From the NCBI RefSeq assembly GCF_004359985.1, contig NZ_SMRO01000001.1:2208193-2272192 (forward strand): DNA of 64,000 nucleotides. Reading direction: 5' to 3'. The notes beneath the pieces were generated by a model that saw only the letters and a program-made list of their open reading frames with translations, was not told the origin of the DNA and searched no databases. Below, piece by piece: positions 6,069 to 64,000 of the stretch. Origin of the DNA: Paraburkholderia flava. GTDB taxonomy: Bacteria; Pseudomonadota; Gammaproteobacteria; Burkholderiales; Burkholderiaceae. The position numbers were made by a program, and so were the translations under genes. Within the stretch, counting starts at the first letter, position 1. The number at the start of each line of letters is the position of its first letter.

Positions 6069-6799
6069 AAGTCCTACTGGTAGAAGATGACGCCCCTAAC
6101 GCCGACGCCGCGGCGCTGGCACTGGCAGACCTCGGCGTCGAATTGTCGAGGGTCGCGGATGGTACGAAGGTCATCGGCTTCCTGCAGAGGAACCCGGTCG
6201 ATCTGATCATTCTCGACTGGAAGCTGCCGGGCGTGAGCGGGCTCGACATTCTGCGCTGGATCCGCGCCAATCTGGGCGCTCAGCCTTCCGTGCTTTTCTT
6301 CACGTCGCGGATACTCGAGGCCGACATCGTCGAAGCATTCGACGCGGGCGCCGACGATTACGTGACGAAGCCGTTCCGGCATCGCGAACTCGCCGCGCGC
6401 GTCGGTGCGCTGTTGCGGCGAAAGAATGCCGCGAAGAAGACTCAGGACGAACTCTCGGTGGGTCACTACACGCTCGATTTTACGGGCCGTGTCATCTACC
6501 TGCGTGGTCAGCCGGTCGACCTGACCGAGAAGGAATTCGACCTCTCGGCGATCCTGTTTCGCAATGTCGGACGCGTAATTTCGCGGGACGTCATCGCGGG
6601 ACTGGCGTGGGGGCATGCGTATGACGGTTCGTCGAGAGCGATGGACACGCATATCTCGCGAATCCGCAGAAAGCTCGCGCTTAATCCCGAAAATGGCATG
6701 CGTCTGAATTCGGTCTATACCCATGGGTATAGGCTGACCGCAGGAAATGCAGAGGCTGAAAAGCCGGAGCAAGGCGATTATCAGAAGCAGGCCGCCTGA
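6065..6799 (+). CDS. OmpR-family response regulator
   Basis: The 244-residue protein has a receiver domain (about 1-118) with acidic pocket Glu7-Asp8-Asp9, phosphoacceptor Asp51, Thr80 and Lys102. A winged-helix DNA-binding domain follows (about 130-228, with DTHISRIRRKL). The start overlaps the EAL stop by 4 bp (ATGA). No histidine kinase gene is nearby, so its partner is elsewhere. Position between an EAL gene and a chaperone-usher operon suggests it controls surface attachment, which is inferred. The C-terminal tail (from about 229) is charged and probably disordered. Confidence 0.88.
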   Translation: MKVLLVEDDAPNADAAALALADLGVELSRVADGTKVIGFLQRNPVDLIILDWKLPGVSGLDILRWIRANLGAQPSVLFFTSRILEADIVEAFDAGADDYVTKPFRHRELAARVGALLRRKNAAKKTQDELSVGHYTLDFTGRVIYLRGQPVDLTEKEFDLSAILFRNVGRVISRDVIAGLAWGHAYDGSSRAMDTHISRIRRKLALNPENGMRLNSVYTHGYRLTAGNAEAEKPEQGDYQKQAA

Positions 6800-6838
6800 A
6801 GGTTTTATCTCATCGCGTTGATCCGAAGTTTGTTGACG

Positions 6839-6870
6839 CGTGGTGTCAGGTTACGAGCCCTGACACCACG
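6839..6870 (+). terminator. Stem-loop after the response-regulator gene
   Basis: The arms CGTGGTGTCAGG and CCTGACACCACG form a perfect 12-bp stem around an 8-base loop, 40 bp after the stop. There is no clear T-run, so it may act as a weak terminator, an mRNA-stabilising end, or a protein-binding palindrome. Confidence 0.55.
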
Positions 6871-7239
6871 GCGCGTGTGCGCCGATTGTGCCGGCTCACC
6901 TGTCTCTTCCGGTTTTCTTTCCTGTTATCCCATTTAATAAAAACCGATCCGCATGCGCGGATATTCGTCATGCGCGACGAATTTTCATAGTCGCGAAGAA
7001 CGGCAATATAAATATAGTTATCCGAATTAAAAATTCGATGCGATGTAACGATTCTTCTCAATTGAATGGTAAGCGAAAGCTACGATACATACGTCCAAAT
7101 TGAACGAAAAACAGGCATGGGGCTCGGCCAGATAGGGCTATGAAGAGCCGCCAGTATGTTGACGGTTATTGGACGGGAAAGATCGTCGATCTTGCCTTTA
7201 TTTCGTAATTCAAATTAACCAGGTTAAAAGATAATCGCT
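6871..7239. other. AT-rich leader region upstream of the pilus operon
   Basis: About 370 bp with no supported gene and a sharp drop in GC, especially 6915-7110 and 7195-7235. AT-rich upstream regions like this are typical targets of H-NS-like silencers and regulators of fimbrial genes. A TTGACG at 7159 could be a -35, but I do not see a convincing -10 at the right distance. Confidence 0.5.
7179..7193. promoter_or_regulatory. Inverted repeat upstream of the pilin gene
   Basis: AAGATCG and CGATCTT flank a single T, giving a 15-bp near-perfect palindrome 46 bp before the pilin ATG. It is a candidate operator for the pilus operon. The binding protein is unknown. Confidence 0.35.
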
Positions 7240-7824
7240 ATGAACACCAAGCTTCTTTCCACACTTGTCCTGATCGGTTCGGCGGCTATTTCGCAAGTCG
7301 CCGCTGCTGCGACGAACGGCGACGGCACGATTACGTTCAACGGTGCCGTGAGCGCGCAGACCTGCACGATCAATGGCAATGGCACGGGCGCCAAAAATTT
7401 CACCGTCACGCTCCCGACCGTTTCGTCGAGCACGCTTGCTACTTCCGGTCAGACCGCGGGCCGCACGTCGTTCAGCATTGCGCTGACCAACTGTACGCCT
7501 GCAACGGGCAACGTCCACACGTATTTCGAACCGGGCACGACGACGGATATCCAGACCGGCAACCTGATTCTGGACAGCAGCAATACCAGCAACGCCGCAG
7601 GCACCGTTCCCAAGAACGTCGCCACCAACGTCGAGATCTCGCTGCTGAACTCGGATACCTCGCCGATCAAGGCAGGCGCGGCGGATGCATCGCAGAACTC
7701 GAAGCCGGTTCCGATTACCGGGGGTAGCGCGACGCTGAACTACTACGCGCAATACATCGCGACGGGTGCGGCAACGGCAGGCACGGCGAACTCGAGCGTG
7801 ATGTACACGATTTCCTATCAATAA
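7240..7824 (+). CDS. Major fimbrial subunit (chaperone-usher, type 1-like)
   Basis: The 194-residue protein has a signal peptide (about 1-23, ending AAA) and a mature pilin. An early Cys in AQTCTING and a second in LTNCTP should form the conserved pilin disulfide. The C-terminus ends MYTISYQ, matching the beta-zipper motif with penultimate Tyr that is recognised by the chaperone and usher. It is exported by Sec, held by the periplasmic chaperone encoded next, and polymerised through the usher. First gene of the operon 7240-13905; the ribosome site is weak. Confidence 0.9.
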   Translation: MNTKLLSTLVLIGSAAISQVAAAATNGDGTITFNGAVSAQTCTINGNGTGAKNFTVTLPTVSSSTLATSGQTAGRTSFSIALTNCTPATGNVHTYFEPGTTTDIQTGNLILDSSNTSNAAGTVPKNVATNVEISLLNSDTSPIKAGAADASQNSKPVPITGGSATLNYYAQYIATGAATAGTANSSVMYTISYQ

Positions 7825-50203: not shown

Positions 50204-50809
50204 ATGCCAACGCGCTTAAGTTTTGACGACGGCCCAGGGCCTTCGACTCCGTCGTTACTCGACGTATTACGCGCAGCCTCGTGCAACGCAACGTTCTTTC
50301 TGCTTGGAAAGAACCTGGAGCACGCGCCCGACGTCGCTGCGAGGATGGTCCGCGAAGGTCATCTATTGGGCAATCACACCTGGTCGCATGCGCGGCCGGG
50401 TGCGTTGTCGGACGAAGCGTTGATCGATGAGATCGAGGCGACCGACGCACTGATCCGCAACGCGTATCGGGCTGCCGGTTTCGCTGCGCCGGACGCTATT
50501 CCGTTGCGCCTTCCGTATGGACTCGAGGCGCAGGATGTCCGCAGCCGTGTGCTGCTGCATTTGCAACGCGATCACATCGGCTGGACTGCGCTCTTCGACG
50601 ACTGGTGCCGCCCGCCGCCGTCGCCGCACGCGCTATTCGAAGCGATGCGTCAGCACATCGTCGAGCGCGTGGCGCAGCGGCAGGATGCGCTGCTGTGTCT
50701 GCACGACAGTTCGCGGCACGGCGAAGCGCATCCCGAGACGGTCGAGGCGGTGCGTCTGCTGCTCGACCATCCGGACGGGCGACGCAGCCTGCTAGACGTC
50801 GGCCAGTAA
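50204..50809 (+). CDS. Minimal polysaccharide deacetylase (NodB domain), no signal peptide
   Basis: The 201-residue protein begins M-P-T-R-L-SFDDGP, so the NodB motif 1 starts at residue 6 and nothing precedes the catalytic domain. HTWSH supplies the HxxxH metal pair, RLPYG the substrate Arg/Pro/Tyr block, and LCLHDSS the last motif. These enzymes remove N- or O-acetyl groups using Zn or similar metal. With no export signal it would act inside the cell, on a sugar metabolite rather than the wall. No strong ribosome site is seen at 50204. It overlaps the convergent kinase-like gene by 18 bp. Confidence 0.8.
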   Translation: MPTRLSFDDGPGPSTPSLLDVLRAASCNATFFLLGKNLEHAPDVAARMVREGHLLGNHTWSHARPGALSDEALIDEIEATDALIRNAYRAAGFAAPDAIPLRLPYGLEAQDVRSRVLLHLQRDHIGWTALFDDWCRPPPSPHALFEAMRQHIVERVAQRQDALLCLHDSSRHGEAHPETVEAVRLLLDHPDGRRSLLDVGQ

Positions 50810-51796
50810 CTGCCGCCAGCACGCAAGAAATCCCATGCCGGGACCGGGCATCCACAGGCCGCGCTGCGCTGCTTCCAGATGAATCAGCACTTGATCCGCG
50901 CAGAACAGAACCATCAGCGCGTCGCGGTTTTCGTGCATCCACTGTGGCACCGCGTGAGGTTGCATAGCGGCGTATGCAAGCAGACCCGTGTCCCACAGCC
51001 GGGCATCGAAAACGAAACGATCGTCAATGGTCGCGTCACGCGAAAGCGCGAACAGCGCAAACGCGGTTTCGAGCCAATGCGAACCTTGCCCGACGTCGTC
51101 GAAATCGAGCACGCCGTTCACCCGCCCATCGACGAACAGCAGATTGCCCGCGTGATAGTCGCCGTGCAGCCAGTGTGTCGGACCGGTCACCCAGGCGGTC
51201 GCCGCATCGAGACTGGCGCCGATGCGATCGAGCAGCACGTCGTAGCGATCGGGCAGGTCAGCGGGCAATGTCGGTGCCGCGCGCCTCGCCACCCGCGTAT
51301 AGCGTTCGCGCAACCACGCGACGGGGCTGGATTCGGTAGAGGGCGAAGGCGAAGGCGAGGGCAAGGGCATCGTCCCCATGGCCGCGTGCAGACGGGCCAG
51401 GGTGTGCATCGCGTCGGTGGTGCCGGACTCTGCATCGGCGGGCAGGCCGGGGATGCCGTCGATGTAGTCGAACAGATGCAGCCAGCTTCCGTCGGGCGTC
51501 TGTACGCCGGGTTGGGCGCCTGTCGTCGGCTGGAGCCGGGGTAGTGCGGGAAGCTTCGCAGACACGCTGAGAACGCCAAGATGATCGAGCACCAGCGCCT
51601 CGCGCCGAACCTGTTCGATCGATTTACCGGGCCACGACACACGCAGCACCGAGCGATGCGAATCACAATCGACGATATACGTTTTGTTAGTATGCCCCGA
51701 CGACATCGCGTGCAGGCGCGCGGGCCGGATGCCCCAGTGCCGGTGAAGCAAAAGTTCGAGCGTTTCCACGTCACTCCTACTCGTTGCAGGGATCAT
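50792..51796 (-). CDS. Aminoglycoside-phosphotransferase-like kinase (cluster kinase 1)
   Basis: The 334-residue APH/choline-kinase-fold protein has an N-lobe with SSGHTNKTYIVD and a C-lobe with the Brenner-type motif HGDYHAGNLLF and the metal motif VLDFDD. It should phosphorylate a small hydroxylated molecule. It is grouped with a deacetylase, methyltransferases and a radical SAM gene. Its ATG (51796) shares bases with the divergent CmcI-like ATG (51795), so the two use a common start region; upstream or downstream starts are possible for either. Confidence 0.85.
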   Translation of the reverse strand: MIPATSRSDVETLELLLHRHWGIRPARLHAMSSGHTNKTYIVDCDSHRSVLRVSWPGKSIEQVRREALVLDHLGVLSVSAKLPALPRLQPTTGAQPGVQTPDGSWLHLFDYIDGIPGLPADAESGTTDAMHTLARLHAAMGTMPLPSPSPSPSTESSPVAWLRERYTRVARRAAPTLPADLPDRYDVLLDRIGASLDAATAWVTGPTHWLHGDYHAGNLLFVDGRVNGVLDFDDVGQGSHWLETAFALFALSRDATIDDRFVFDARLWDTGLLAYAAMQPHAVPQWMHENRDALMVLFCADQVLIHLEAAQRGLWMPGPGMGFLACWRQLLADV

Positions 51797-52484
51797 GTCT
51801 GAGCGTATTTCCGCCCGCATGCGGGACATCAATATCGAATGGCTGACGCGTGCAGCTGAATTCGACCATCTGTTTCAGACGCGCTGGCTCGGCGAGCGCT
51901 TCTTCCATCTGCCGGGCGACATGCTCGCGATCCAGGAACTGGTCTGGCGCGAGCGTCCCGACTGCATCGTGCAGACGGGTATCGCGGCCGGCGGCGGTGT
52001 CGTGTTCTCCGCGTCGATGCTGGAACTGGTCGCCGGTGATGGCCGCGTCGTCGCCGTCGAACCGCGTTTGCGCGACGACGTCCGGCAGCGTTTGCAATCG
52101 CATCGTCTTGCTCATCGGATGGTGCTGATCGAAGGCGAATCGTGTTCGGACGCGACGCTCGAATCGGTCCGCGAGCAGATTCGCGGCTGTTCGCGCGTCA
52201 TGGTGATTCTCGATCTCACGCACACACACGAGCACGTGTTGCGCGAGCTCGAATGTTACGCGGGACTCGTGACGCCGGGCAGCTACGTGGTCGTGATGGA
52301 CACGATCATGGAGTATCTGCCCGAGTCGATGTTCGACGGCAAGCCCTACGGAAAAGGCAACAACCCGGCGACGGCGGTGCGCGCGTTTCTCGCGGACGAC
52401 GACCGCTTCGAGGTCGACGAAGAAATCGAGGATCGCGTGATCATGACCCTGTCGCCAGGCGGCTTCCTGAAGCGAGTTCGCTGA
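51795..52484 (+). CDS. CmcI-like cephalosporin hydroxylase / rhamnosyl O-methyltransferase family protein
   Basis: The 229-residue SAM-methyltransferase-fold protein matches the CmcI family: QTGIAAGGGVVFSASMLEL as the SAM loop, GRVVAVEPR after it, and LDLTHTHEHVLRELE with the DxxH-type metal motif. Family members methylate or hydroxylate sugars and beta-lactams. It runs opposite the neighbouring kinase and converges with the glycosyltransferase, overlapping it by 44 bp. Modification of a sugar hydroxyl fits the cluster, but the substrate is unknown. Confidence 0.82.
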   Translation: MSERISARMRDINIEWLTRAAEFDHLFQTRWLGERFFHLPGDMLAIQELVWRERPDCIVQTGIAAGGGVVFSASMLELVAGDGRVVAVEPRLRDDVRQRLQSHRLAHRMVLIEGESCSDATLESVREQIRGCSRVMVILDLTHTHEHVLRELECYAGLVTPGSYVVVMDTIMEYLPESMFDGKPYGKGNNPATAVRAFLADDDRFEVDEEIEDRVIMTLSPGGFLKRVR

Positions 52485-53646
52485 TCAGGCGAGCCGCTTC
52501 GGCCGACCCATCACGCGTATAGCTCGCACGGATCTGCGCGACGCGGTCGTGCAGCGGACCGGGGCGCAGCGCGCGCCCGATTGCATCCGCGATGTCCTGC
52601 ACCGTTGCGTGCTCCAGATCCAGCCGGTATCCGGCTCCCGCCCGTTCGACGAAGTGCGCGGAGTGGAACTGGTCATTGCAGAACGGCGACAGCAGCATCG
52701 GGACGCCGGATGCGAGCGCTTCCATCACCGAGTTCGCGCCGCCATGGCTGATGAACGCGTGGGTTCGCTGCAGCAACGCGAGTTGCGGCGCGTAGCGCAC
52801 GGCGATCACGCGTTCGTCGTCGGTAGGCAGCACGTCGGCGTCGACCAGTTCGCCTGCCGACAGCACCAGTTGCGCGGACGTTTTGCGTGTCGCGTCGATG
52901 ACCTTCGCGAACAGATCCGGGTGGTAGTAAAGCTGGCTGCCTAACGACATATAGACGAGCGGACGGTCGGCGTCGATGCGTTCCCACGGGAAAGACGTCT
53001 CGTCACCGCGAGGACCCGACGGTAGCGCCGGGCCAACCAGCTCGACGCCGACCGGCGGCTTGCCGACGAGTTCTTCTGTCGTGAACGCGAGCGTCAGATG
53101 CGGCGAGAGAATGTCGCAACCGCGAAAGCGCGCGTCGAGACCGTAGCGCGCGAACAGGCGATCGCGTTCCGGCGCGAGCCAGCGCACCGTGCGCAACAGC
53201 TCCGAGTCGAGATCGTCCGGCAACACGGGATTCAGCGAGTTGGACATCGCGACCCACGGCAATCCTTCCAGCTCGGCCGCAATGGCCGCGGCGTACAGCA
53301 GTGGATCGATCACGACCACGTCGGGTCGCCACGCGTGCATCACGGCGCGGATGCCGTCGGTCTGGGCAGGCGCCAGATCGATCAGCAGCGTCCGGATCCA
53401 CTGTCGCAGCCACGCGGCGTCGCGAATGTTCGCGGCGAATGTCGCGCCGCGAGACAGATCATGTCGTTCGGGCGTTTCGCGTGGCCCGAGGAACGTGAAA
53501 GTGCCGGCGCCGTCGAGCTGATCGCTGATGTCGGCGGGCGCGTAGAAGGCGACGTCGAAGCCGGCGGCTCGCAGATGCTGGGCCGGTCCGATGCAAGGAT
53601 TGACGTGCCCTTTCTCGGGCACGACGCAGAACAGGATGCGGGTCAT
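52441..53646 (-). CDS. MGT-type glycosyltransferase (GT1 family)
   Basis: A 401-residue GT-B enzyme. The N-terminal acceptor domain begins ILFCVVPEKGHVNPCIG with the His that activates the acceptor. The C-terminal nucleotide-sugar domain has MSLGSQLYYHP and HGGANSVMEALASGVPML. Such enzymes transfer sugars to small natural products. The ATG overlaps the stop of the asparagine-synthetase-like gene (ATGA). It is the last gene of a five-gene operon. Confidence 0.9.
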   Translation of the reverse strand: MTRILFCVVPEKGHVNPCIGPAQHLRAAGFDVAFYAPADISDQLDGAGTFTFLGPRETPERHDLSRGATFAANIRDAAWLRQWIRTLLIDLAPAQTDGIRAVMHAWRPDVVVIDPLLYAAAIAAELEGLPWVAMSNSLNPVLPDDLDSELLRTVRWLAPERDRLFARYGLDARFRGCDILSPHLTLAFTTEELVGKPPVGVELVGPALPSGPRGDETSFPWERIDADRPLVYMSLGSQLYYHPDLFAKVIDATRKTSAQLVLSAGELVDADVLPTDDERVIAVRYAPQLALLQRTHAFISHGGANSVMEALASGVPMLLSPFCNDQFHSAHFVERAGAGYRLDLEHATVQDIADAIGRALRPGPLHDRVAQIRASYTRDGSAEAARLISELASGSRLATGS

Positions 53647-54707
53647 GGGCGGGCTACGTGGGTGGGAAGCGTTGCGCCGAGGTGGTCGAGCGTCAGCGTG
53701 AGGGTCGTCCATAGCACGCGCTCGGTGTCCGGTTGCAGCGTGGGAGCGGGAAGGTTCAACGTGTCGGCGAGCATGGGGATGCGGTCGCGATCGAGCAGTG
53801 CATCGAGGTTCATCGCGGGTGCGAGCCGGCCACGCTTGGGACCGCGTACCAGACGATCCGGCAGGTTCAGCCGTGCGCCTAGTTCGCGCAGGCAGTGCTT
53901 GTCGGGATCGGGCGGAATGCTGGTCAGGTGGTTGACGACAGCCAGGTCCACGAACGGCGGACACAGGCTCACCGACGCCGCATCGAACAGCGCGTGACAC
54001 AACGGCAGATAGTTGGCCGACTGGTCGCGGCGCAGCACCTGGTCCGCGCCGTCGCCGGTGATCGCCAGTTCGATGCCGTCTGCCGCCATCGCTTCGGCCA
54101 GCAGTAGTTTTGCTACCGGGTGCAGGTTGAACATCGGCTCTTCGACTGCGTGCGTGGTCCTCGGCAACGCGGCGACGAAATCGGCTTCGCACGCGCGCAC
54201 GATCTTCACGCTGGCCTGCATCTGGTCGGCTAGTTCGAGTGCGGCGTCCAGCTCGCAGTAGTCGGGCATGTCGGTGGCGAGGATGTAGGACGTCACGTGC
54301 CGGTGCGCACCGAGTTCGCGCAACAGCGCGAGCAGCAGCGCGGAATCGAGCCCACCGCTCAATGCGAGTGCGACGCGCTTGCCGCTGTCGAGTGCGCGTT
54401 GCAGTGCGTCGCGCAGCACGGTCTCCAGATCGGCGCGCACGGGTTCGGACGGCGCGGCATGCACTTCCAGACCCTGCGACGAACGGATCAGCGCGTGACC
54501 GGGCGGTACCGCCAGCACGTCCCGCAACACCGTACGACCGACGACGCGCTCGCCGCTCAGATAGCCGGCAATCGCGGTCACGTCGGGTGGACCGGCGGGT
54601 TGCCCGGAGGCCCGTAGTACCTGCAGGATGCCGCCTGCCGACGCGCCGCTGCGCGGATGGTAGTGCAGCCGCTCGAAGCCGAAGAAGTCTCGCGTGCCGA
54701 CGATCAT
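53643..54707 (-). CDS. Asparagine-synthetase-like amide ligase with shortened glutaminase domain
   Basis: The 354-residue protein has an ATP-pyrophosphatase loop SGGLDS at 117-122, a second site TGDGADQVLRRD, and a late PKRGRLAP block, as in asparagine synthetase B and beta-lactam synthetase. The N-terminal part starts at RDFFGFERLHYHP, equivalent to residue about 80-90 of the usual glutaminase domain. The nucleophile Cys2 and glutamine site are therefore missing. It should adenylate a carboxylate and join it to free ammonia or an amine. It overlaps both neighbours by 4 bp. The frame is open upstream but inside the radical SAM gene. Confidence 0.85.
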   Translation of the reverse strand: MIVGTRDFFGFERLHYHPRSGASAGGILQVLRASGQPAGPPDVTAIAGYLSGERVVGRTVLRDVLAVPPGHALIRSSQGLEVHAAPSEPVRADLETVLRDALQRALDSGKRVALALSGGLDSALLLALLRELGAHRHVTSYILATDMPDYCELDAALELADQMQASVKIVRACEADFVAALPRTTHAVEEPMFNLHPVAKLLLAEAMAADGIELAITGDGADQVLRRDQSANYLPLCHALFDAASVSLCPPFVDLAVVNHLTSIPPDPDKHCLRELGARLNLPDRLVRGPKRGRLAPAMNLDALLDRDRIPMLADTLNLPAPTLQPDTERVLWTTLTLTLDHLGATLPTHVARP

Positions 54708-55579
54708 GGATAGCACGCCTTCAGTGTCTCCACCTCGATGCGCTTCATGATCCGGTGCGGCGCCACGACCGCACTGCCGCCGTGACAGTGCAGGCAGGCT
54801 TCGAGCGGCGTTTCGCGCTGCAGGTACGCGAGCATCGCGTCGAGCATGCAGGCATCGTCGCGCAGCGGCAGACCATCGGACTGGAAATCTTGAGTGCCCT
54901 TGTACAGCGTATGAAAATGCGCGGGACGGGTGCACGTATAGAACATCCCATCGCGGATCATGTGACAGCGTTCGCGAATCCAGCAGTCGTGATAGATGCG
55001 CTTTGCTTCGTCATCGGTGCTGAGCTCCGCGCGATTCATCGTCGTGAACACGTCCTGCACTTTCCAGTTCAGGCGTACTGCGAAGCGCCCCGCCTGCTTC
55101 TCGATGTACGCGACCAGGTCCGACGCGAGCGACGGCTTCGGATAGCGCGAGATCGTCAACGCATCGACTGTTTGCCAGAACGCATTCGACATGTCTCCGA
55201 GTTTCGTCCCGTTCGTCGTCACGGAAATGACGGGCGCGATGCCGGTGTCCCGCACGCGCTTGATCAACTCGACCAGCTCGGGATGCAGCAGCGGTTCGCC
55301 GCCGACCAGTTTGAACACGCGCGGATTCAGCACCTTGACGGCTTTGCGCAGATCGTCGGCAACCGATTCGGGGCTCGCGTACCAGGCCGGCAGCAACGGC
55401 GACAGCGAACAGCACTCCGCGCACGTCAGGTTGCAGTGATCGACGATGTGCGCTTCCAGCGAGCGCGTCTGCACGCGTCCGTCCTGCACGCGGTAGTTGC
55501 GTTCGAGCGGCGGCGGGAAGACATGCTGCCGGCCGTTGGGCGACGCGCTGGTCGAGGGAGGGTTCATGTTTGCACTCAC
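54704..55579 (-). CDS. Radical SAM protein with auxiliary-cluster cysteines
   Basis: The 291-residue protein has the 4Fe-4S/SAM motif Cys49-x3-Cys53-x2-Cys56 in HCNLTCAEC, the GGEP motif at 93-96 and a TTNGT strand. The C-terminal part has further cysteines at 199, 205, 216, 244, 262 and 265 (in DCW, RCH, YTCTRP and ACLHCHGG). These could hold one or two extra clusters, as in SPASM/twitch enzymes. It may dehydrogenate, epimerise or couple a substrate. GTG 55579 follows AGGAAG; ATG 55567 is an alternative. It directly follows the kinase-like gene (1 bp gap). Confidence 0.87.
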   Translation of the reverse strand: MSANMNPPSTSASPNGRQHVFPPPLERNYRVQDGRVQTRSLEAHIVDHCNLTCAECCSLSPLLPAWYASPESVADDLRKAVKVLNPRVFKLVGGEPLLHPELVELIKRVRDTGIAPVISVTTNGTKLGDMSNAFWQTVDALTISRYPKPSLASDLVAYIEKQAGRFAVRLNWKVQDVFTTMNRAELSTDDEAKRIYHDCWIRERCHMIRDGMFYTCTRPAHFHTLYKGTQDFQSDGLPLRDDACMLDAMLAYLQRETPLEACLHCHGGSAVVAPHRIMKRIEVETLKACYP

Positions 55580-55580
55580 G

Positions 55581-56591
55581 TCAGCTTCCTGCTTCCACGC
55601 AACGGGAAAAGAAATCGATCAACTGGCCGCGCGCGTCGGCCATCGTCGACGCCATCGTCGCGGCTCCACGCAGATGCGCATCGTAGCGCGGCGGATCGGC
55701 CAGCCAGCCGCGCACGACCCACAGCTTGAGCGCATGTTGCAGACAGGCTGCGTCGACGGCCCACGCGATTCGCTCGACACGTACCGGACGGACTTGCTGA
55801 TACGCGTGCACGAAAACCTCGGCGAGTGCCGGCGCTTCCAGCGGCAGATGATTCAGACAGCGGACAAGTTCGAATTCCCGTGGCGCGCCGATCACGGCTT
55901 CCCAATCCAGAATCACAGGAGGCAGGCCGCGATCTCGCTCGGCATCGGAATCGAACAGGTAGTTGAACTGGTTGTAGTCGTTGTGGATCGGATGCTGCGG
56001 GTCGTCGACGGGAAACGCGTCGATGCTGCCGGGATAGTGTTCGTCGATCAGGCGCAGGCTCGTATCGACATAGGTGCGCAGGTGCGATGTGTCGGTGTCG
56101 GGTGGTGGGTGGTCGAGCGCGTCGACCAGGCTGCTGCGCACGTGATCGACATCGATTGCAGCGAGGCGTGCGTGGAGCGTGTCGAGTGCCGGCAGACGCA
56201 GCCGGTCGAGACTCAGATGCAGCGCCGCGAGACTCGCGCCGAGTGCGGCCCATTGATCGGGTGTGAACGTATCGTAGGTCTTGAATTGCCCTGTCCCCCA
56301 CTGCGTCAGCATCGCGTGTGAGTCGAGGCCGGTCCACAGAGCTTCGCCGGTCGTCGTGAGGCACAGTGTCTGGACGCGGAAGCGGGCATCGTCGTGTGCG
56401 TGCAGATGCGCGAGCACGGCGGCCTCTCTTGTCGCTCTCGCGTGCTGGTCGCTTGTGTAGAGCTTGACGGCCAGGTCGCCTGCGTCGGTCGGCAGGCGCC
56501 ATACGCGCTCGCTGACCTGGCGTGCGGGTCCATTGCGCGTGACGGCATACGCTGCGCAGATCGCGTCGAAGGTGGCGGCCCGATCGTTCAT
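55581..56591 (-). CDS. Phosphotransferase-like protein (cluster kinase 2)
   Basis: The 336-residue APH-fold protein has an N-lobe Lys in LAVKLYTS and a catalytic loop PIHNDYNQFNYLF with Asp205 and Asn210 (HND in place of HGD). The metal-site motif is VILDWE (Asp229). It is distant from the APH at 50792, so the cluster has two different kinases. The start codon immediately follows the methyltransferase stop (TGA-ATG). Confidence 0.82.
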   Translation of the reverse strand: MNDRAATFDAICAAYAVTRNGPARQVSERVWRLPTDAGDLAVKLYTSDQHARATREAAVLAHLHAHDDARFRVQTLCLTTTGEALWTGLDSHAMLTQWGTGQFKTYDTFTPDQWAALGASLAALHLSLDRLRLPALDTLHARLAAIDVDHVRSSLVDALDHPPPDTDTSHLRTYVDTSLRLIDEHYPGSIDAFPVDDPQHPIHNDYNQFNYLFDSDAERDRGLPPVILDWEAVIGAPREFELVRCLNHLPLEAPALAEVFVHAYQQVRPVRVERIAWAVDAACLQHALKLWVVRGWLADPPRYDAHLRGAATMASTMADARGQLIDFFSRCVEAGS

Positions 56592-57341
56592 TCAGATCTG
56601 CTCGGCCGGCCCGTGGCGATACGGATGGCCGCTCAGAAACGTGTTGTGGCCGACGTAGCGCAGCTTGTACATCGCGGGCCGGAACACGACCGATGGATCG
56701 TTACTGGCGATGCCGAGGAGCGGGTACAGGTCGCGTCTGACGAAGAACGCGTTGTTGCCCATGTCATCGCAGCACACCAGCTCGTAGCCTTTCTGCTTGC
56801 CGAGGTGATGCAGCGATTCGAGGCTCGCGCCGTAATAGGTCGAGCCGTCCCATTCGTGGTCCGGATTGAAGCACATGACCCAGCGCTCGGGCGGCGTGTA
56901 GTACGGGTTGTATTCGATGATCACGATGCGCGGCTGGTGCGCTTCGAGGCCACGCCAGATCCAGTAGTCGTTGCCGTCGACGTCGATCGACAGCAGATCG
57001 AAATCGATAGGGACGCCGGCCTCGGCAAGCAGCCGATCCACCGTATCGGGCTGCACGCGTTCGTGACGCAAACGGACGCCATCCGCGCGACCGTAGTGTG
57101 CTTCGAGTTTTCCGAAGCGGTAGTCGCTCCCTTCGATCAGCAGACCCTGCCAGCCGTATTCGCGGAGCAGCCGCGCGGTGTTGCTGTTGCGCAGGCCGTC
57201 GCTTGCACCGATGTCGACGCAGAAGCGGCTGGTTGGTGCGATCCGTTCCAGCAGGCGCGACAGGATGCTTTCTTCGCTGCCTTGCGCGTAGAGGCTTTGA
57301 GCGAGGTTCGACAGGTCGATCGGGAGAGGGGAGTCCGGCAT
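56592..57341 (-). CDS. FkbM-like SAM-dependent methyltransferase
   Basis: The 249-residue class I methyltransferase-fold protein has VDIGASDGLRNSNT at 42-55 (SAM loop) and GLLIEGSDYRFGKLE (acidic ribose-binding end). FDLLSIDVDGNDYWIWRGL and IVIIEYNPYYTP follow, as in FkbM-like O-methyltransferases. First gene of the five-gene operon; the promoter should lie in 57342-57500. M-P-D-S at 57341 is chosen; the frame is open to 57437. Confidence 0.8.
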   Translation of the reverse strand: MPDSPLPIDLSNLAQSLYAQGSEESILSRLLERIAPTSRFCVDIGASDGLRNSNTARLLREYGWQGLLIEGSDYRFGKLEAHYGRADGVRLRHERVQPDTVDRLLAEAGVPIDFDLLSIDVDGNDYWIWRGLEAHQPRIVIIEYNPYYTPPERWVMCFNPDHEWDGSTYYGASLESLHHLGKQKGYELVCCDDMGNNAFFVRRDLYPLLGIASNDPSVVFRPAMYKLRYVGHNTFLSGHPYRHGPAEQI

Positions 57342-58330: not shown

Positions 58331-59599
58331 ATGGGCGCGACGATCACTGAGAAAATTATTGCCCGCGCAGCGGGCCTTGTTTCGGTTGCGCCAGGCGATG
58401 AAGTCATGGTCAAGCCCGACTTCGTACTCGCCTACGACTTCCCAGGCTACACGAACGTTTACTTCAGACAACTGAAAGAGGATCTGCATATCGAGCGGAT
58501 CGCCGAACCCGAACGGTTCGGAATCTTTATCGATCACATGGTTCCGGCCGCGTCCGTCGATGAAGAGGCGTTCCACATCGAGACGCGGCAATGGACGTCG
58601 GAGAACAGCGTCCCGCTCTTCGAACGCAAAGGCATCGGTCACCAGGTCGCGGCCGAAGTCGGCTATGCGGTTCCCGGCGCGCTGGTGGTTCACTTCGATC
58701 CGCACATCAGCCAGTTGGGTACGTTTGGAACGCTCGGCCTCGGCATTCACCGGAACATGCTCGAAGCCTATTCGCGCGAACGCATTGCGCTCCGTGTGCC
58801 GCATACGGTGCGCATCGAGCTCAAAGGTTCGCTCACCCCCGGCGTGATGGCGCGTGACGTGTTTCATCATATCGTCGGACAGATCGGTTCGGACGGCTGC
58901 CGGTTCAAGGTGATGGAGCTTGCGGGTCCCGGACTCGATACGCTGTCGATCGACGGACTGCAAACCATCACGGGTCTTGCGATGTTCGTCGGCGCAATTT
59001 CGGCCATCGTTAACCCGAACGAGGCGCGGCTGCGCTATGCACTTCCGCGCGCGAGGAAGACGATCGAGCCGCTTTACAGCGACGCCGATGCGCACTACTT
59101 TGCTGTGCATGAAATCGACCTCGGCGCGATCGAACCAATTGTCGTCATACCGCCGAGTCCCGCCAATACGCGCGCGTTACGCGATCATCTCGGCGTGCCC
59201 GTGCAGGCAGGCTACCTCGGGTCCTGCGCGTCAGGTCGCCTCGAGGATCTGCAGGCGGCCGCCGCCGTGTTGCGCGGCCGGCACGTCGCAGAGGGCTTCA
59301 GTCTGAACATCGTTCCAACGTCGCAGCAGATCATGCTCGAAGCGTCCCGCGCGGGCCTGCTCTCCACGCTCGTGGAAGCAGGCGCGTTCCTGTCGTCGCC
59401 CAGCTGCGACTACTGCTATGGACGCATGGGTACGATCACCGCCGGCCAGCGCGCGGTATCGACCGGCACACTCAACGTGCCTGGACGCATGGGCAGCACC
59501 GACGCCGAGATCTATCTGTGCAACGCGGCCGTCGTCGCTGCGTCGGCAATCGAAGGACGCCTTGCCGATCCTCGTCCCTACCTCGGAGCATCGGCATGA
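58331..59599 (+). CDS. Aconitase-superfamily dehydratase, large subunit (LeuC/DmdA-like)
   Basis: A 422-residue protein of the 3-isopropylmalate dehydratase large-subunit type. 4Fe-4S ligands are Cys299 (GSCASGR), Cys359 and Cys362 (SCDYCYG). FIDHMVPAA and SQLGTFGTLGLG segments fit the family. It hydrates or dehydrates a hydroxy-dicarboxylic acid together with the small subunit encoded next. Cotranscription with a lyase of the isocitrate-lyase/PEP-mutase family recalls 2,3-dimethylmalate dehydratase (DmdA) more than leucine synthesis. GGAGAGG precedes the ATG, and the stop overlaps the next ATG. Confidence 0.87.
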   Translation: MGATITEKIIARAAGLVSVAPGDEVMVKPDFVLAYDFPGYTNVYFRQLKEDLHIERIAEPERFGIFIDHMVPAASVDEEAFHIETRQWTSENSVPLFERKGIGHQVAAEVGYAVPGALVVHFDPHISQLGTFGTLGLGIHRNMLEAYSRERIALRVPHTVRIELKGSLTPGVMARDVFHHIVGQIGSDGCRFKVMELAGPGLDTLSIDGLQTITGLAMFVGAISAIVNPNEARLRYALPRARKTIEPLYSDADAHYFAVHEIDLGAIEPIVVIPPSPANTRALRDHLGVPVQAGYLGSCASGRLEDLQAAAAVLRGRHVAEGFSLNIVPTSQQIMLEASRAGLLSTLVEAGAFLSSPSCDYCYGRMGTITAGQRAVSTGTLNVPGRMGSTDAEIYLCNAAVVAASAIEGRLADPRPYLGASA

Positions 59600-60111
59600 A
59601 CCTGAAGAATCTTGCGGGCCGCGTCGCGTTCATCTTTGCCGACGACGACTACGACGTCGACCAGATCGTCGGTGTGAAAAACATTCGGGTTCAGGACCCG
59701 GACGCGCTGCGACGCATCGTGATGCAGGCAGTCGATCCCGACTTCGCTGCGACGGTACAACCGGGCGACGTGCTGATCGGTGGACGCAACTTCGGTTACG
59801 GCCACCCGCACTATCCGCCGATGATCGCGATGCGCGACCTCGGCATTTCGTGCGTCATTGCCGAATCGTTTTCGCCCGGCTACTGGTGGGGCGAAATGGC
59901 GGAAGGATTTCCGCAGATCGCCTGCGCGGGCATTCTCGAACAGGTTCGACGCTGGGATCCGATCGAGGTCGTCTGGGACGAATGCCTCGTCAGGAATCTT
60001 GCCACCGGCGCCGCGTTGCCATTCGATCCACCGACCCGTTCGGAAAGGGACATTCTCGGCGCCGGCGGCCTCGTCAAATATCTTCAGTCTTTATCCTGCG
60101 ACCGCTCATGA
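59596..60111 (+). CDS. Aconitase-superfamily dehydratase, small subunit (LeuD/DmdB-like, atypical)
   Basis: The 171-residue swivel-domain protein opens MNLKNLAGRVAFIFADDDYDVDQIVG and has GGRNFGYGHPHYPPM, where ordinary LeuD and DmdB proteins have NFGxGSSREHA. The Ser-Ser-Arg-Glu that binds the substrate carboxylate is therefore replaced by His-Pro-His-Tyr. The substrate probably differs from isopropylmalate. The start overlaps the large-subunit stop by 4 bp, and its stop overlaps the lyase ATG. Confidence 0.83.
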   Translation: MNLKNLAGRVAFIFADDDYDVDQIVGVKNIRVQDPDALRRIVMQAVDPDFAATVQPGDVLIGGRNFGYGHPHYPPMIAMRDLGISCVIAESFSPGYWWGEMAEGFPQIACAGILEQVRRWDPIEVVWDECLVRNLATGAALPFDPPTRSERDILGAGGLVKYLQSLSCDRS

Positions 60112-60992
60112 ACAACCAACCGATGAACTCATTCCCCCGCGTTGCCCAGCCCGGCGAAGCGTCCCGTGCATTGCTGAACCTCGCACACCGCGACCGCGCG
60201 CAAGTCATTCCCGGCGCTTACGACGCCTTTAGCGCGAAGCTCGTCGAGCACGCCGGATTCGATGCGGTGTATGTCGGCAGCTATGCGACGGCCGCGGCTG
60301 CGTACGGAATGCCCGACGTTGGCGCTCTGACACTGGACCAGCTCGTCGATCACGCACGCAAGGTTGTCGCCGCAGTGTCGGTTCCGGTGATCGCGGATGC
60401 GGAAGGCGGTTTCTTCGAGCCGGGCAATATCTGGCGAACCGTGCGCGAATTCGAGCAGGCCGGCGTCGCCGCCATTCATATCGAAGATCACGCGGGAGGC
60501 AAGCACACCCAGCTGCCGCAACGCCTCGTCGCGCTCGATCAGGTGCTGGCCCGGTTGCGTGCCGCTCTCGACGCGCGCAATTCCACCGATTTCATCGTGA
60601 TGGCAAGAACCGACGCGATCTGGGCGGTGCACGACGAAGACGAGGCGATTCGTCGCGTCAAGGCGTTCTTCGATATCGGCATCGAGTACATCTTTGCGAA
60701 TGGCGCGACGCCCGACATATTGCGACGGTTTCGCCGCGCGGTGCCGGCCCGCTACGTCACGATCCAGCATCCTGATGTGCGCGACCGCAGCGAATGGAAC
60801 GGTGCAGCGGACATCGTGCTCGACTATGGATTTTGCCTGCAGGCCGTGGCGAAATCGTTGACGACGGCTTTGTCTGCCTATCGCGCGACGCCCAGCGTCG
60901 ACAGCACGGATGTCTATCTGGAACCTGCCGACGTGCTCGAAGCGAGACTGGGCTACGACGCGTTTACGGAGCGTGCGAATCGCTACGTCTAG
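60108..60992 (+). CDS. Isocitrate lyase / PEP mutase family lyase
   Basis: A 294-residue TIM-barrel protein. VIPGAYDAFSAKLVEHAGFDAVYVGS is the N-terminal block, DAEGGFFEPGN holds the metal Asp, and the IHIEDHAGGKH strand follows. VMARTDAIW and DEAIRRVKAFFDIG come next. The usual catalytic loop K-K/R-C-G-H of isocitrate, methylisocitrate and dimethylmalate lyases is absent: the sequence after IED reads HAGGKHTQLP. It may be a decarboxylase or a lyase using another acid. Third gene of a coupled operon, so it should act on the dehydratase product. Confidence 0.85.
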   Translation: MNNQPMNSFPRVAQPGEASRALLNLAHRDRAQVIPGAYDAFSAKLVEHAGFDAVYVGSYATAAAAYGMPDVGALTLDQLVDHARKVVAAVSVPVIADAEGGFFEPGNIWRTVREFEQAGVAAIHIEDHAGGKHTQLPQRLVALDQVLARLRAALDARNSTDFIVMARTDAIWAVHDEDEAIRRVKAFFDIGIEYIFANGATPDILRRFRRAVPARYVTIQHPDVRDRSEWNGAADIVLDYGFCLQAVAKSLTTALSAYRATPSVDSTDVYLEPADVLEARLGYDAFTERANRYV

Positions 60993-61021
60993 CGTCACCC
61001 TTGCATGGAGTAGACACCGAA

Positions 61022-61879
61022 ATGAACATCGAACCCCTGTCGCTACTCGCCGACGATTTTGCGTTTCTCGAAGGACCGCGCTGGTATCGCAATCATCTTT
61101 GGGCGTCGGACATCACCGGTATGAAGCTTTATCGGATCGCGATGGACGGTACGCGCGAAGTGATCTGCGACGTGCCGCATCGTCCTTCGGGCATCGGCTT
61201 TCTGCCTGACGGCACGCCTGTTGTCGTGTCGATGACCGACCGTCGGTTGATGCGAGTCGTCGATGGCAAGCTGGTGTTGCACGCGGACCTGTCCGCGCTT
61301 GCGCCGGCCGACCTGAACGATCTCGTCGTCGATGACGACGGCCGCATCTATGTCGGCAACTTTGGTTACGACCTCTTCGGCGGTGCGCCGAAGCGTCCAG
61401 CAGATCTCTTTGTCGTGGAGCCTGACGGCTCGGCGCGCGTCGCGGCAGGCGGATTCGACTTCCCGAACGGCGTGGTCCTGAAAGACGGCGGCCGCACGCT
61501 TGTCGTTGCCGAATCGTGGTCGAACCGGCTGACCGCTTTCGATCGCGACGATAACGGCAACCTGTCGAACGGCCGTCTCTATGCCGACATGGGCGACGGG
61601 CAGCCGGACGGCATTTGCGTCGATCGCGAAGGCGGCATCTGGGTGCCGAACTTCAACACCGGGGAAGTGGTCCGCATTCTCGAAGGTGGCGTCGTGACGG
61701 ACCGGATTTCCGTCGGCAACAAGCGCGCGCTCGCGTGCCAGCTAGGCGGAGAAGATGGGCGAACGCTGTTCTGCATCACGTTCGATGGCCCACCCGAAGA
61801 TCTGATGACCGGCAAGCGACTGTCCGCGCTTTATACAACCCGGGTCGCGATTCCGGGCCCTGGCTGCAACGTCGCGTGA
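61022..61879 (+). CDS. SMP-30/gluconolactonase family protein
   Basis: The 285-residue six-bladed beta-propeller has FLEGPRWYRNHLWASDITG with the metal Glu. LNDLVVDDDGRIYVGNFG, FPNGVVLKDGGRTLVVAES and DGICVDREGGIWV carry the Asn and Asp metal ligands of the SMP-30 family. It would open a lactone, feeding or ending the pathway of the preceding three genes. It starts 29 bp after the lyase gene. No signal peptide, so cytoplasmic. Confidence 0.9.
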   Translation: MNIEPLSLLADDFAFLEGPRWYRNHLWASDITGMKLYRIAMDGTREVICDVPHRPSGIGFLPDGTPVVVSMTDRRLMRVVDGKLVLHADLSALAPADLNDLVVDDDGRIYVGNFGYDLFGGAPKRPADLFVVEPDGSARVAAGGFDFPNGVVLKDGGRTLVVAESWSNRLTAFDRDDNGNLSNGRLYADMGDGQPDGICVDREGGIWVPNFNTGEVVRILEGGVVTDRISVGNKRALACQLGGEDGRTLFCITFDGPPEDLMTGKRLSALYTTRVAIPGPGCNVA

Positions 61880-61906: not shown

Positions 61907-63223
61907 TTATGTGCCGCCCCGCACACACCGAAACCCTGCATAAACATGCTGATACCGCGGCTGAAACCAGTTGCGGAACGCCGGCCTCAACATGCATTGC
62001 GCGGTGCGTGCCGAGCCGCCTTTGAGCACGTAATGCTGGTCGTCGAAGAAGTTCGCTGAGTAACCCAGATAGAACGGAAACGCTTCGAAGTCAGGTAGCG
62101 CTGCGAACAACGTCGACGTCCATTCCCAGCCGTTGCCGAACTGGCCTTCGACGCCGAATGCACTGACGTTGTCCGGATGCGCGTCGACCGGCTGCGGATC
62201 CCAGTGACGAAAATCGAAATTGCCCGATGCGCCATGCGGCGCACCGTGAGCGGCGCGTTGCCATTGCGCTTCGGTCGGCAGCGTCTTGCCCTTCGAGCGC
62301 GCGTAGGCGCTCGCTTCCGCGTGGCTGACATAGACGGGCCAGTCGAGCGGTAGTGCGATGTCGTCGAACATCGTGCGCAACCGCCATGCGTCGCTATCGG
62401 ACTCGCGCGATTCACGCGACCAGCCCACCGGATGTTCGATGTGCTCCGCTTCTTTCCACGCCCAGTCCTTGTCGTTCCACCACGCACGTTCGTTGTAGCC
62501 GCCGGCCTCGATGAACGCGCGGTAGTCGCCGTTCGTCACCATGTGCCGGTCGATCTCGAACGCGGGCACGTCGACGCGCAGCTCGCCGAATTCGTTGTCC
62601 CAGCCGAACTGTCCGCTTTCCTTCGTCAGGCCGAGTACGGTCGGGCCTGCGGGAATCGCGATCATCGTGGGCGCGGGAAGATGGCGCACGGCGTCGCTCG
62701 CCTGTGCGGGCGTGGCCGTGACGGGGTTCGCGATCTTCTGTGCGAGCGGCAGTTGATGCAGCATGTACGCGAGCGTTTCCGCGTGCATCAGCCGATGTTC
62801 GATCGCGACGTTTAGCAGTTGCGCGGGCGAACTCGTCGCCATGCCGTCCTGCGCGAAGTCAAGTGTGCCGAGTGCGTGGTCGATCTGTTCGCGCGCGCGT
62901 TGTCCATAGGCACGCACGACGTCGAGCGTCGGCCAGTCGGCGGGTTCGTCGGTCGGAAAGCCTCCGTCGACGGGATCGATGCCGAACGCGAACAGCGTGT
63001 CGAGCTCGGGCTCGAACGCAGGCAGCGCGCACAGCCGTTCGTCGAACAGATTGCGGTCGAACGCTTCGAGGTGGCCAATGTAAAAGACGATGCGGTGACG
63101 CTCGCGGATCGGCCGCTCGTAGAGAAATTCGGGTTTGACGATCGCGAAGAGCGCATCCGTGACGTCGCGCGCGGCAATGAGGCGCTGAACGAGCGGATGC
63201 TGGAAGGCGAGGTCGCGTTTCAT
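61907..63223 (-). CDS. EgtB-like nonheme iron sulfoxide-synthase family protein
   Basis: The 438-residue protein has an N-terminal DinB-like helical bundle with an iron site HRLMHAE (HxxxHxE pattern) and a partner His in YIGHLEAFD. The C-terminal formylglycine-generating-enzyme fold (about 180-438) contains EFGELRVDVPAFEIDRHMVT, LPTEAQWQRAAHG, FGNGWEWT and ending GFRCVRGG. This is the EgtB/OvoA/SenA architecture, which joins Cys, gamma-Glu-Cys or a selenosugar to trimethylhistidine. No EgtD or SenB/SenC gene is in the window, so the product is uncertain. AAGGAG precedes ATG 63223. Confidence 0.87.
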   Translation of the reverse strand: MKRDLAFQHPLVQRLIAARDVTDALFAIVKPEFLYERPIRERHRIVFYIGHLEAFDRNLFDERLCALPAFEPELDTLFAFGIDPVDGGFPTDEPADWPTLDVVRAYGQRAREQIDHALGTLDFAQDGMATSSPAQLLNVAIEHRLMHAETLAYMLHQLPLAQKIANPVTATPAQASDAVRHLPAPTMIAIPAGPTVLGLTKESGQFGWDNEFGELRVDVPAFEIDRHMVTNGDYRAFIEAGGYNERAWWNDKDWAWKEAEHIEHPVGWSRESRESDSDAWRLRTMFDDIALPLDWPVYVSHAEASAYARSKGKTLPTEAQWQRAAHGAPHGASGNFDFRHWDPQPVDAHPDNVSAFGVEGQFGNGWEWTSTLFAALPDFEAFPFYLGYSANFFDDQHYVLKGGSARTAQCMLRPAFRNWFQPRYQHVYAGFRCVRGGT

Positions 63224-63546
63224 GTCGCCGGGTCTCCTTGCTGGGGGACGGTCTTGAACTTTACCGTGTTTGCACGAGACGTGCCACGGCATGTGCAGGC
63301 TGCTGCTGACGGCAACTGACGTTATGCAGCGGGCCGCCGCACGCGATATCGCACGACGAGATCGACGAGACGCGTGGTCTGCCGCGTGTGTCGATCCGTC
63401 CACGCTTTTGAAAACCTGACACGGTGCGGTGAGTGGTTCCGCTTGTCGTCCCCAGATTGATTTCCGCCGACGAATAGCCACGTGTTGTGCGTCGCTCGAC
63501 GAGATGGCAGTAGCTGTCATGTTCGCGTCGAGCAACGCATCGCGCG
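63224..63546. other. Intergenic region upstream of the EgtB-like gene
   Basis: About 320 bp with no supported gene; open frames are extensions of the EgtB-like frame or shadows. It should contain the EgtB-like promoter and the end of the stress-protein transcript. I see no convincing promoter or terminator. Confidence 0.4.
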
Positions 63547-64000
63547 TCAGTCCGCCTTTGCTTCGTCTCCGTCGCCCGCCGATGGAATCAGCAGGACCGG
63601 CAACGTCGACTGACGGACGCAACGCTCGGCCACACTGCCGAGAATCAGCCGCTGAAATCCGCGTCGTCCGTGCGTACCCATCACGACCAGATCGGCGTGG
63701 AATGCGTCGGCGGCTTTCAGCACGAGTGCGGGCACGTCGTCGAGCGACGATGCCTCTGAGGTGACGAGTTCGCCGGCGACCCCGCGCTCGCGCATCGCAG
63801 CCCCAAGTTCGGCGGCGAGCTCGTTGCCCTGTTCGACCAGTTGCGTGCGCAGCACGGACGGGTCGTAACCCGGCGACTCGAAATACAGCGGCGTGTTCTC
63901 GATCACGTAGAACGGCTGCAGCACGGCGCCCGGTGCCGCAGCGAGTCCGAGTGCCGCGTCGAACGCGCGACGCGACGTGTGGCTGCCGTCGACGGCTACG
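63547..64000 (-). CDS. Universal stress protein (UspA family), N-terminus beyond the window
   Basis: The 150 visible residues begin inside the first strand (VAVDGSHTSRRAFDAAL), so fewer than about ten residues are missing. The ATP-binding pattern G-x2-G-x9-G-S is present in GTHGRRGFQRLILGS, and the protein ends after VLLIPSA and an acidic tail. UspA proteins bind ATP and help cells survive stress and stasis. Confidence 0.9.
   Translation of the reverse strand, partial: VAVDGSHTSRRAFDAALGLAAAPGAVLQPFYVIENTPLYFESPGYDPSVLRTQLVEQGNELAAELGAAMRERGVAGELVTSEASSLDDVPALVLKAADAFHADLVVMGTHGRRGFQRLILGSVAERCVRQSTLPVLLIPSAGDGDEAKAD

Follow-up and report, generated by a model that had tools for sequence, protein, structure and literature searches.

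The 64,000-nucleotide stretch of Paraburkholderia flava analyzed here (contig NZ_SMRO01000001.1, positions 2,208,193 to 2,272,192; hereafter the window) contains at positions 50204-57341 eight genes that are a conserved, co-evolving unit with intact catalytic motifs. This cassette is mobile and kept whole. It encodes a twitch radical S-adenosylmethionine (SAM) enzyme (rSAM), an asparagine-synthetase-like amide ligase (Asn), an MGT glycosyltransferase, a NodB deacetylase, two kinases of the APH fold (APH and kin2), and two methyltransferases, of FkbM and CmcI type. The open reading frames (ORFs), coordinates, strands, and families given by a first-pass annotation made from the sequence alone were upheld, the families by Pfam and NCBIfam, with kin2 recognized by its APH motifs. 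We give about even credence to the proposal that the eight genes form one horizontally mobile biosynthetic cassette making a small, soluble aminosugar glycoside.

A radical SAM alignment search of named genomes gave 71 loci, 42 of which are clear family members (L031-L072). The first-pass annotation had proposed seeking the same gene set in other genomes: 27 named loci have all eight genes, and related clusters are found in other phyla. With the window, these make up the 28 complete loci; two members truncated by contig ends, L047 and L053, stand outside this set. Gene order and strand are identical in all 28, in agreement with the earlier view of a compact biosynthetic unit. The packing is also as tight as had been claimed. 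On the minus strand fkbM and kin2 abut (0 bp), kin2 and rSAM lie 1 bp apart, and the rSAM/Asn and Asn/MGT pairs each overlap by 4 bp. The convergent MGT and CmcI genes share 44 bp at their 3' ends (52441-52484), the overlap between APH and NodB is 18 bp long, and one CATG (51794-51797) holds the ATG start codons of the divergent CmcI and APH genes. With these starts, the upstream promoter space of each falls entirely inside the coding sequence of the other. The whole cassette spans 7.1 kb. The 4-bp rSAM/Asn overlap recurs in 28/28 complete loci, and the MGT/CmcI overlap is exactly 44 bp in 27 of them, across several genera, and 47 bp in the remaining one. The CATG is common to the CmcI and APH starts in 21/28 loci. 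All counts of overlapping starts are subject to the uncertainty of start codons picked by script for lying closest to the expected position. Such an eight-gene layout is far beyond chance.

The 27 named loci come from Burkholderia, Paraburkholderia, Trinickia, Chitinasiproducens, Bordetella, Achromobacter, Verticiella, and an unclassified proteobacterium, and the truncated L053 from Luteibacter. In the window's family, five contiguous genes stand in the same order in all 29 genomes with rSAM, the window's own included; these five are all that the 3.9-kb family-genome loci contain. A second, weak rSAM match in the window's genome (L002) has none of the five neighbor genes. Separate searches with rSAM and kin2 picked out an identical set of 29 among the 349 family genomes, and the pairwise distances among the eight proteins over the 28 loci correlate at 0.91-0.97. 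The rSAM marker occurs in 31/65 genomes of one related Burkholderia-like genus, 6/144 of the window's own genus, and 1/398 of a phylum-wide sample, the one being the window's own genome. Flanks were compared in 15 representatives (the window and 14 of the 27 loci), and shared flank ORFs sort these into 10 neighborhoods: three Bordetella loci; the HZ34 and LUAb4 loci; three linked Burkholderia loci; and seven that stand alone, the window among them. Between different groups there are no more than one or two weak flank matches. We conclude that the cassette is mobile and kept whole because order and overlaps are conserved, rSAM and kin2 co-occur, distances are correlated, neighborhoods differ, and the marker is patchily distributed. 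One pair clouds this picture, since flank ORFs (97 ORFs) are common to L049 and L050, whose hosts, Achromobacter sp. HZ34 and Bordetella sp. LUAb4, bear different genus names. The first-pass annotation had made its unit depend on the genes not occurring independently in relatives; this stood for rSAM and kin2, the two genes compared in this way. The distant phyla, however, keep only part of the eight-gene set.

In the flanks, an ORF of ~330-490 codons (36-41% identity) recurs in the three Bordetella loci L031-L033 (~6220-7290, minus strand), in L049 (15779-16870, minus), and in L050 (16148-17623, minus). It lies on opposite sides of the cassette in L031-L033 and in L049/L050.

Table 1. Genes of the eight-gene cassette, in window coordinates.
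Gene product	Coordinates	Strand	Evidence and remarks
NodB-type polysaccharide deacetylase, 201 aa	50204..50809	+	PF01522 E 1.1e-24
APH-type small-molecule kinase	50792..51796	-	PF01636 E 1.6e-22; ATG start 51796, TTG at 51832 possible
CmcI / rhamnosyl O-methyltransferase-type methyltransferase	51795..52484	+	PF04989 E 4.2e-63; CmcI 2bm8 E 1.4e-4
MGT-type (GT1) UDP-sugar glycosyltransferase	52441..53646	-	PF00201 E 1.1e-19; TIGR01426 E 4.1e-40, under its cut-off
Asparagine-synthetase-like amide ligase without catalytic N-terminal glutaminase domain	53643..54707	-	PF00733 E 1.7e-24
Twitch radical SAM enzyme (rSAM), SpeY/HygY type	54704..55579	-	C49-x3-C53-x2-C56
Second APH-fold kinase, divergent (kin2)	55581..56591	-	HNDYNQFN and DWE motifs
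FkbM-family class I methyltransferase	56592..57341	-	PF05050 E 7.7e-6

The radical SAM enzyme gives the clearest indication of the chemistry. Its fold matches the twitch enzymes SpeY and HygY over the full length, and by sequence and structure its closest characterized enzymes are SpeY (spectinomycin) and HygY (hygromycin B), rather than BtrN of the butirosin pathway with which the first-pass annotation had compared it. The substrates of HygY and SpeY are assembled aminoglycosides, which they modify at sugar carbons. The best structural match is the dehydrogenase SpeY (PDB 7wzv, 7wzx, and 7x0b), with a common fold over 261 residues at 1.9 Å and 31% identity, and homology to a HygY-like protein is full-length (36% over 98%). 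Conservation was followed in 49 aligned rows (the window, 40 of 120 homologues listed among 405 found, and eight distant loci), and all 120 were checked afterwards. The CxxxCxxC radical SAM motif is present in 119 of the 120, with one gap. C199, C216, C262, and C265, kept in 118-120 of the 120, align with cysteines of SpeY and of the HygY-like protein, and are the presumed cysteines of an auxiliary [4Fe-4S] cluster. Cys205 corresponds to HygY position 183 and is found in all 49 rows and in 119 of the 120 listed homologues, again with one gap; its counterpart is Cys in the HygY-like protein and Ser in SpeY. HygY, an epimerase, has the same cysteine set, including the Cys183/Cys205 pair, and loss of a single Cys is reported to make a dehydrogenase of it. 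Cys205 is a candidate hydrogen-atom donor and points to epimerization.

The same unit might instead be built around a dehydrogenase of the SpeY/BtrN type, which would convert a sugar hydroxyl to a ketone to be trapped by a neighboring amine or hydroxyl. This is a serious contender that we nevertheless consider unlikely. SpeY, the best structural match, is a dehydrogenase, and the four cysteines align as expected of an auxiliary cluster with all its ligands, as in BtrN, which is also a twitch radical SAM enzyme with a four-Cys auxiliary cluster and acts on an aminoglycoside precursor; however, the near-invariant Cys205 speaks for the HygY side. A prokaryotic viperin-like antiviral system is hardly credible. 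The pVip models of PADLOC do match the radical SAM core (E 4.6e-12), but the best match is limited to residues 42-144 (model positions 3-99 of 257), and viperin defense was rejected on this partial match.

Motifs of the other enzymes were counted in locus proteins of at least 60% of the query length that were not cut off, the truncated Asn protein of L047 being dropped; four of the alignments (A4-A7) hold 12/30, 9/27, 12/30, and 12/29 loci besides the window. The FDDGP and GNHT-x2-H motifs of NodB are invariant in 28/28 rows. Its frame begins six codons ahead of the catalytic FDDGP, and with this start it therefore has no leader; its predicted role is the cytosolic N-deacetylation of an aminosugar. 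MGT has invariant HGGANS and CNDQ motifs in 37 rows. In the Asn-type ligase the PP-loop SGGxDS, the downstream GDxxD, and Lys291 are invariant in 39 rows, the first two being the motifs of asparagine-synthetase-superfamily amide ligases. Its sequence starts only in the final part of the Ntn domain, and Pfam gives no GATase match. A glutamine-hydrolyzing asparagine synthetase B was ruled out, as there is no N-terminal glutaminase domain with Cys1. The kept motifs without a glutaminase suggest that the enzyme forms amides in an ATP-dependent manner with an amine or free ammonia.

The APH kinase retains the catalytic HGDYHAGN and DFDD, and its weak profile matches include an aminoglycoside phosphotransferase (9o56, E 1.9e-5), a glucosamine kinase (6hwj, E 8.2e-5), and a hygromycin-B kinase (6iy9, E 1.3e-4). 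The window copy of kin2 is the only one of the eight proteins with no Pfam match at E up to 0.1. It has APH catalytic motifs, most of the 120 relatives listed for it carry a precomputed PF01636 assignment, and its best PDB profile match is, weakly, a spectinomycin phosphotransferase (E 0.014). FkbM shows the strongest conservation among the eight proteins, with 105 of its 249 residues unchanged across 31 rows, and has a generic class I methyltransferase fold, in a model with a predicted local distance difference test score (pLDDT) of 73.9.

The functions sought around these enzymes and not found bear on other readings of the cassette. None of the eight proteins matches a nonribosomal peptide synthetase, polyketide synthase, cyclitol synthase, or sugar-nucleotide family in Pfam or NCBIfam. 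No flanking gene is common across the neighborhoods of the 15 representatives, hence no transporter or regulator. The comparison of 35 small ORFs from the window flanks with 54 flanks of the 27 loci gave two matches at or below E 0.01, the better one with E 0.004 across 21 residues, and no conserved peptide gene. The absence of peptide or polyketide synthases, precursor peptide, transporter, and regulator remarked in the first-pass annotation thus holds. A cluster for a ribosomally synthesized and post-translationally modified peptide is not supported, as no conserved precursor peptide gene lies beside the maturase. A butirosin-type 2-deoxystreptamine cluster was likewise set aside: the eight proteins include no 2-deoxy-scyllo-inosose synthase or aminotransferase family, and the flanks are not conserved. 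Full-text literature searches returned no paper that we recognized as treating this cluster, which is weak evidence given that most subscription journals lay outside their coverage.

Surface decoration, which the first-pass annotation had entertained, is not favored. The enzymes would then modify a lipid-linked or exported glycan, as part of a surface-polysaccharide or lipopolysaccharide cassette. FkbM, CmcI/rhamnosyl methyltransferase, NodB, and asparagine-synthetase families all occur in O-antigen loci, and one Bordetella homologue is named an O-antigen biosynthesis aminotransferase. Yet Pfam finds no Wzx, Wzy, or initiating glycosyltransferase among the eight proteins or the twelve flanking window ORFs, on which ground an O-antigen or surface polysaccharide locus was rejected. 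The flanks differ between neighborhoods, the glycosyltransferase is of the MGT rather than a polysaccharide type, and the deacetylase is leaderless, so that we regard surface decoration as improbable. Still less probable is a resistance cassette that glycosylates, phosphorylates, and methylates a foreign antibiotic and so inactivates it. Antibiotic-inactivating enzymes exist in both the MGT and APH families, but the co-conservation of eight genes and the chorismatase-like or acyl-activating enzymes of some related clusters argue otherwise, and we know of no amide ligase, deacetylase, or radical SAM epimerase that serves as a resistance enzyme.

Among the loci, four architectures were seen. Type I is the eight-gene cassette, to which L056 and L053 add a full-length AsnB. 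Type II, in the Verrucomicrobia-type L060, L061, and L063, the deltaproteobacterium L066, and the Bdellovibrionales L069, combines rSAM, a short Asn ligase (shorter in L069), a full AsnB, MGT, GT2, and an unnamed family of ~270 aa. Four of these five loci also have a PIG-L deacetylase, the sole gap of L066, and a chorismatase-like gene is added in L063 and L069. The top NCBIfam match of the L060 PIG-L protein is BshB1 (E 4.9e-6, under its cut-off). Type III (Myxococcales L068 and L072, Planctomycetota L070 and L071) has a row of Asn ligase, MGT, the unnamed family, and PIG-L, divergent from rSAM; a 188-aa protein and an AMP-binding-like enzyme are also encoded, at the far end in the Myxococcales and past rSAM in the Planctomycetota. 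Only rSAM, Asn, and AsnB are visible in L064 and L067, on contigs of ~5.5 kb. Over these 11 distant loci (types II and III, L064, and L067), an Asn-type ligase is present in 11, MGT in nine, the unnamed family in nine, and PIG-L in eight. In type IV (Paraliomyxa L034 and Kofleriaceae L038, the latter on a 3.9-kb contig), rSAM faces CmcI, with fkbM and kin2 in L034. A second Paraliomyxa contig has Asn (39%), AsnB, MGT (48%), an ASKHA-like gene, and PIG-L, with an ORF of Ser/Thr protein-kinase type between MGT and the ASKHA-like gene. Paraliomyxa is thus the most informative case: fkbM, kin2, rSAM, and cmcI coexist with Asn and MGT in one genome, split between two sites, PIG-L replacing the NodB of type I. 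Whole-genome searches of nine of the 13 type II-IV genomes found FkbM matches at E 1e-10 in Paraliomyxa only (two matches), and CmcI matches in Paraliomyxa and the genome of L060 (E 1.4e-115 and 2.7e-40).

The unnamed family, found beside distant MGT clusters at L060:15660-16466 and in L061, L063, L066, L068-L072, and L108, has no Pfam or confident NCBIfam match. Its DVGQT-K, NDAELAA, and TLGFGxGAA motifs, read by eye, make it look like an ASKHA sugar kinase; its weak matches are polyphosphate/ATP glucomannokinase (E 0.0027), glucokinases (E 0.03-0.04), and, at similar E, chains of DnaK, Hsp105, and PilM. From these comparisons, the core of the system is rSAM, the Asn ligase, MGT, a kinase, and a deacetylase, with FkbM, kin2, and CmcI as add-ons. 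In some distant clusters, the presence of chorismatase-like and AMP-binding genes may be a sign that the partner is a carboxylic acid, whether derived from chorismate or not; this need not apply to the cassette of the window.

The pathway that we propose from this gene content leaves the step order, acceptor, and sugar identity free. MGT would transfer a sugar, probably N-acetylhexosamine from UDP-N-acetylhexosamine, to a small acceptor, and NodB would strip the N-acetyl group in the cytosol. rSAM would take a hydrogen off a carbinol carbon, and Cys205 would give one back on the other face, inverting the center. The Asn-type ligase would activate a carboxylate with ATP and join it to the amine as an amide, the CmcI- and FkbM-type enzymes would O-methylate, and the two APH-fold kinases may phosphorylate the sugar or the finished product, as pathway steps or for self-protection. 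An aminosugar and a phosphorylation step are the most economical assumption because NodB is interchangeable with PIG-L and, apparently, the APH kinase with the ASKHA-like one.

Several points weigh against this proposal. The whole pathway, product and reactions alike, is predicted from genomes, and the N-acetyl sugar donor is deduced from the deacetylase alone. The cassette contains no gene for a nucleoside diphosphate sugar and no exporter. The reading of Cys205 presupposes that Cys183 is the hydrogen donor in HygY, Cys57 is conserved as strongly as Cys205 with no counterpart in the HygY-like protein, and Cys205 could serve another role. The kinship of the kinases to aminoglycoside and glucosamine kinases is weak (E 1.9e-5 to 0.014), and the ASKHA assignment leans on by-eye motifs and weak matches (E 0.0027 at best). 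Finally, PIG-L was not found in three of the 11 distant loci, nor MGT and ASKHA in two (the short contigs L064 and L067).

Among known systems, the aminosugar glycoside pathway proposed here most resembles parts of several. In a hygromycin-like Streptomyces stretch, the glycosyltransferase gene adjoins the HygY-like gene and a predicted aminoglycoside kinase gene is also there. However, genes for an epimerase/dehydratase, an aminotransferase, and an ABC transporter are part of that stretch; the cassette lacks these and has instead an amide ligase, NodB, and the FkbM and CmcI methyltransferases. The hygromycin-B-like cluster with a predicted APH(7'')-Ia (L103, NZ_CP016083.1 819479-840523) occupies one terminus of a linear Streptomyces plasmid of 840 kb. 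Spectinomycin differs in being made via an aminocyclitol pathway. Mycothiol and bacillithiol are built by glycosyl transfer, N-deacetylation, and amide formation, a logic like that of the cassette, whereas the ligase and deacetylase of the window are from different families, no thiol step is seen, and the cassette adds a radical SAM enzyme, methyltransferases, and kinases. By analogy, the cassette may work like HygY/SpeY chemistry placed inside an aminosugar pathway that deacetylates and then amidates.

Elsewhere in the window, positions 58331-61879 encode in succession an aconitase/LeuC-like large subunit, the product of a small ORF, a PEP-mutase-family enzyme, and an SMP-30/gluconolactonase. 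These genes have the appearance of a catabolic operon with no connection to the cassette. The protein encoded at 61907-63622 has FGE-sulfatase and DinB_2 domains, and we take it to be EgtB-like and possibly of ergothioneine type.

We tentatively suggest, with rather less than even confidence, that an undescribed family of aminosugar pathways dependent on radical SAM enzymes spans Proteobacteria, Verrucomicrobia, Planctomycetota, Myxococcales, and Bdellovibrionales, with the cassette as its Burkholderiales form and with deacetylase, kinase, and amide ligase modules exchanged for members of unrelated families. The product would then be a conserved intracellular metabolite (e.g., a cofactor-like or protective glycoside amide), not a lineage-specific antibiotic. 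The rSAM marker is common in one Burkholderia-like genus (31/65), and the cassette is compact enough to be expressed whole. To our knowledge, radical sugar chemistry of the HygY/SpeY type has hitherto been tied to actinomycete aminoglycosides; the clusters described here would extend it to several other phyla, with the testable chemical prediction that a single cysteine sets the outcome between epimerase and dehydrogenase.

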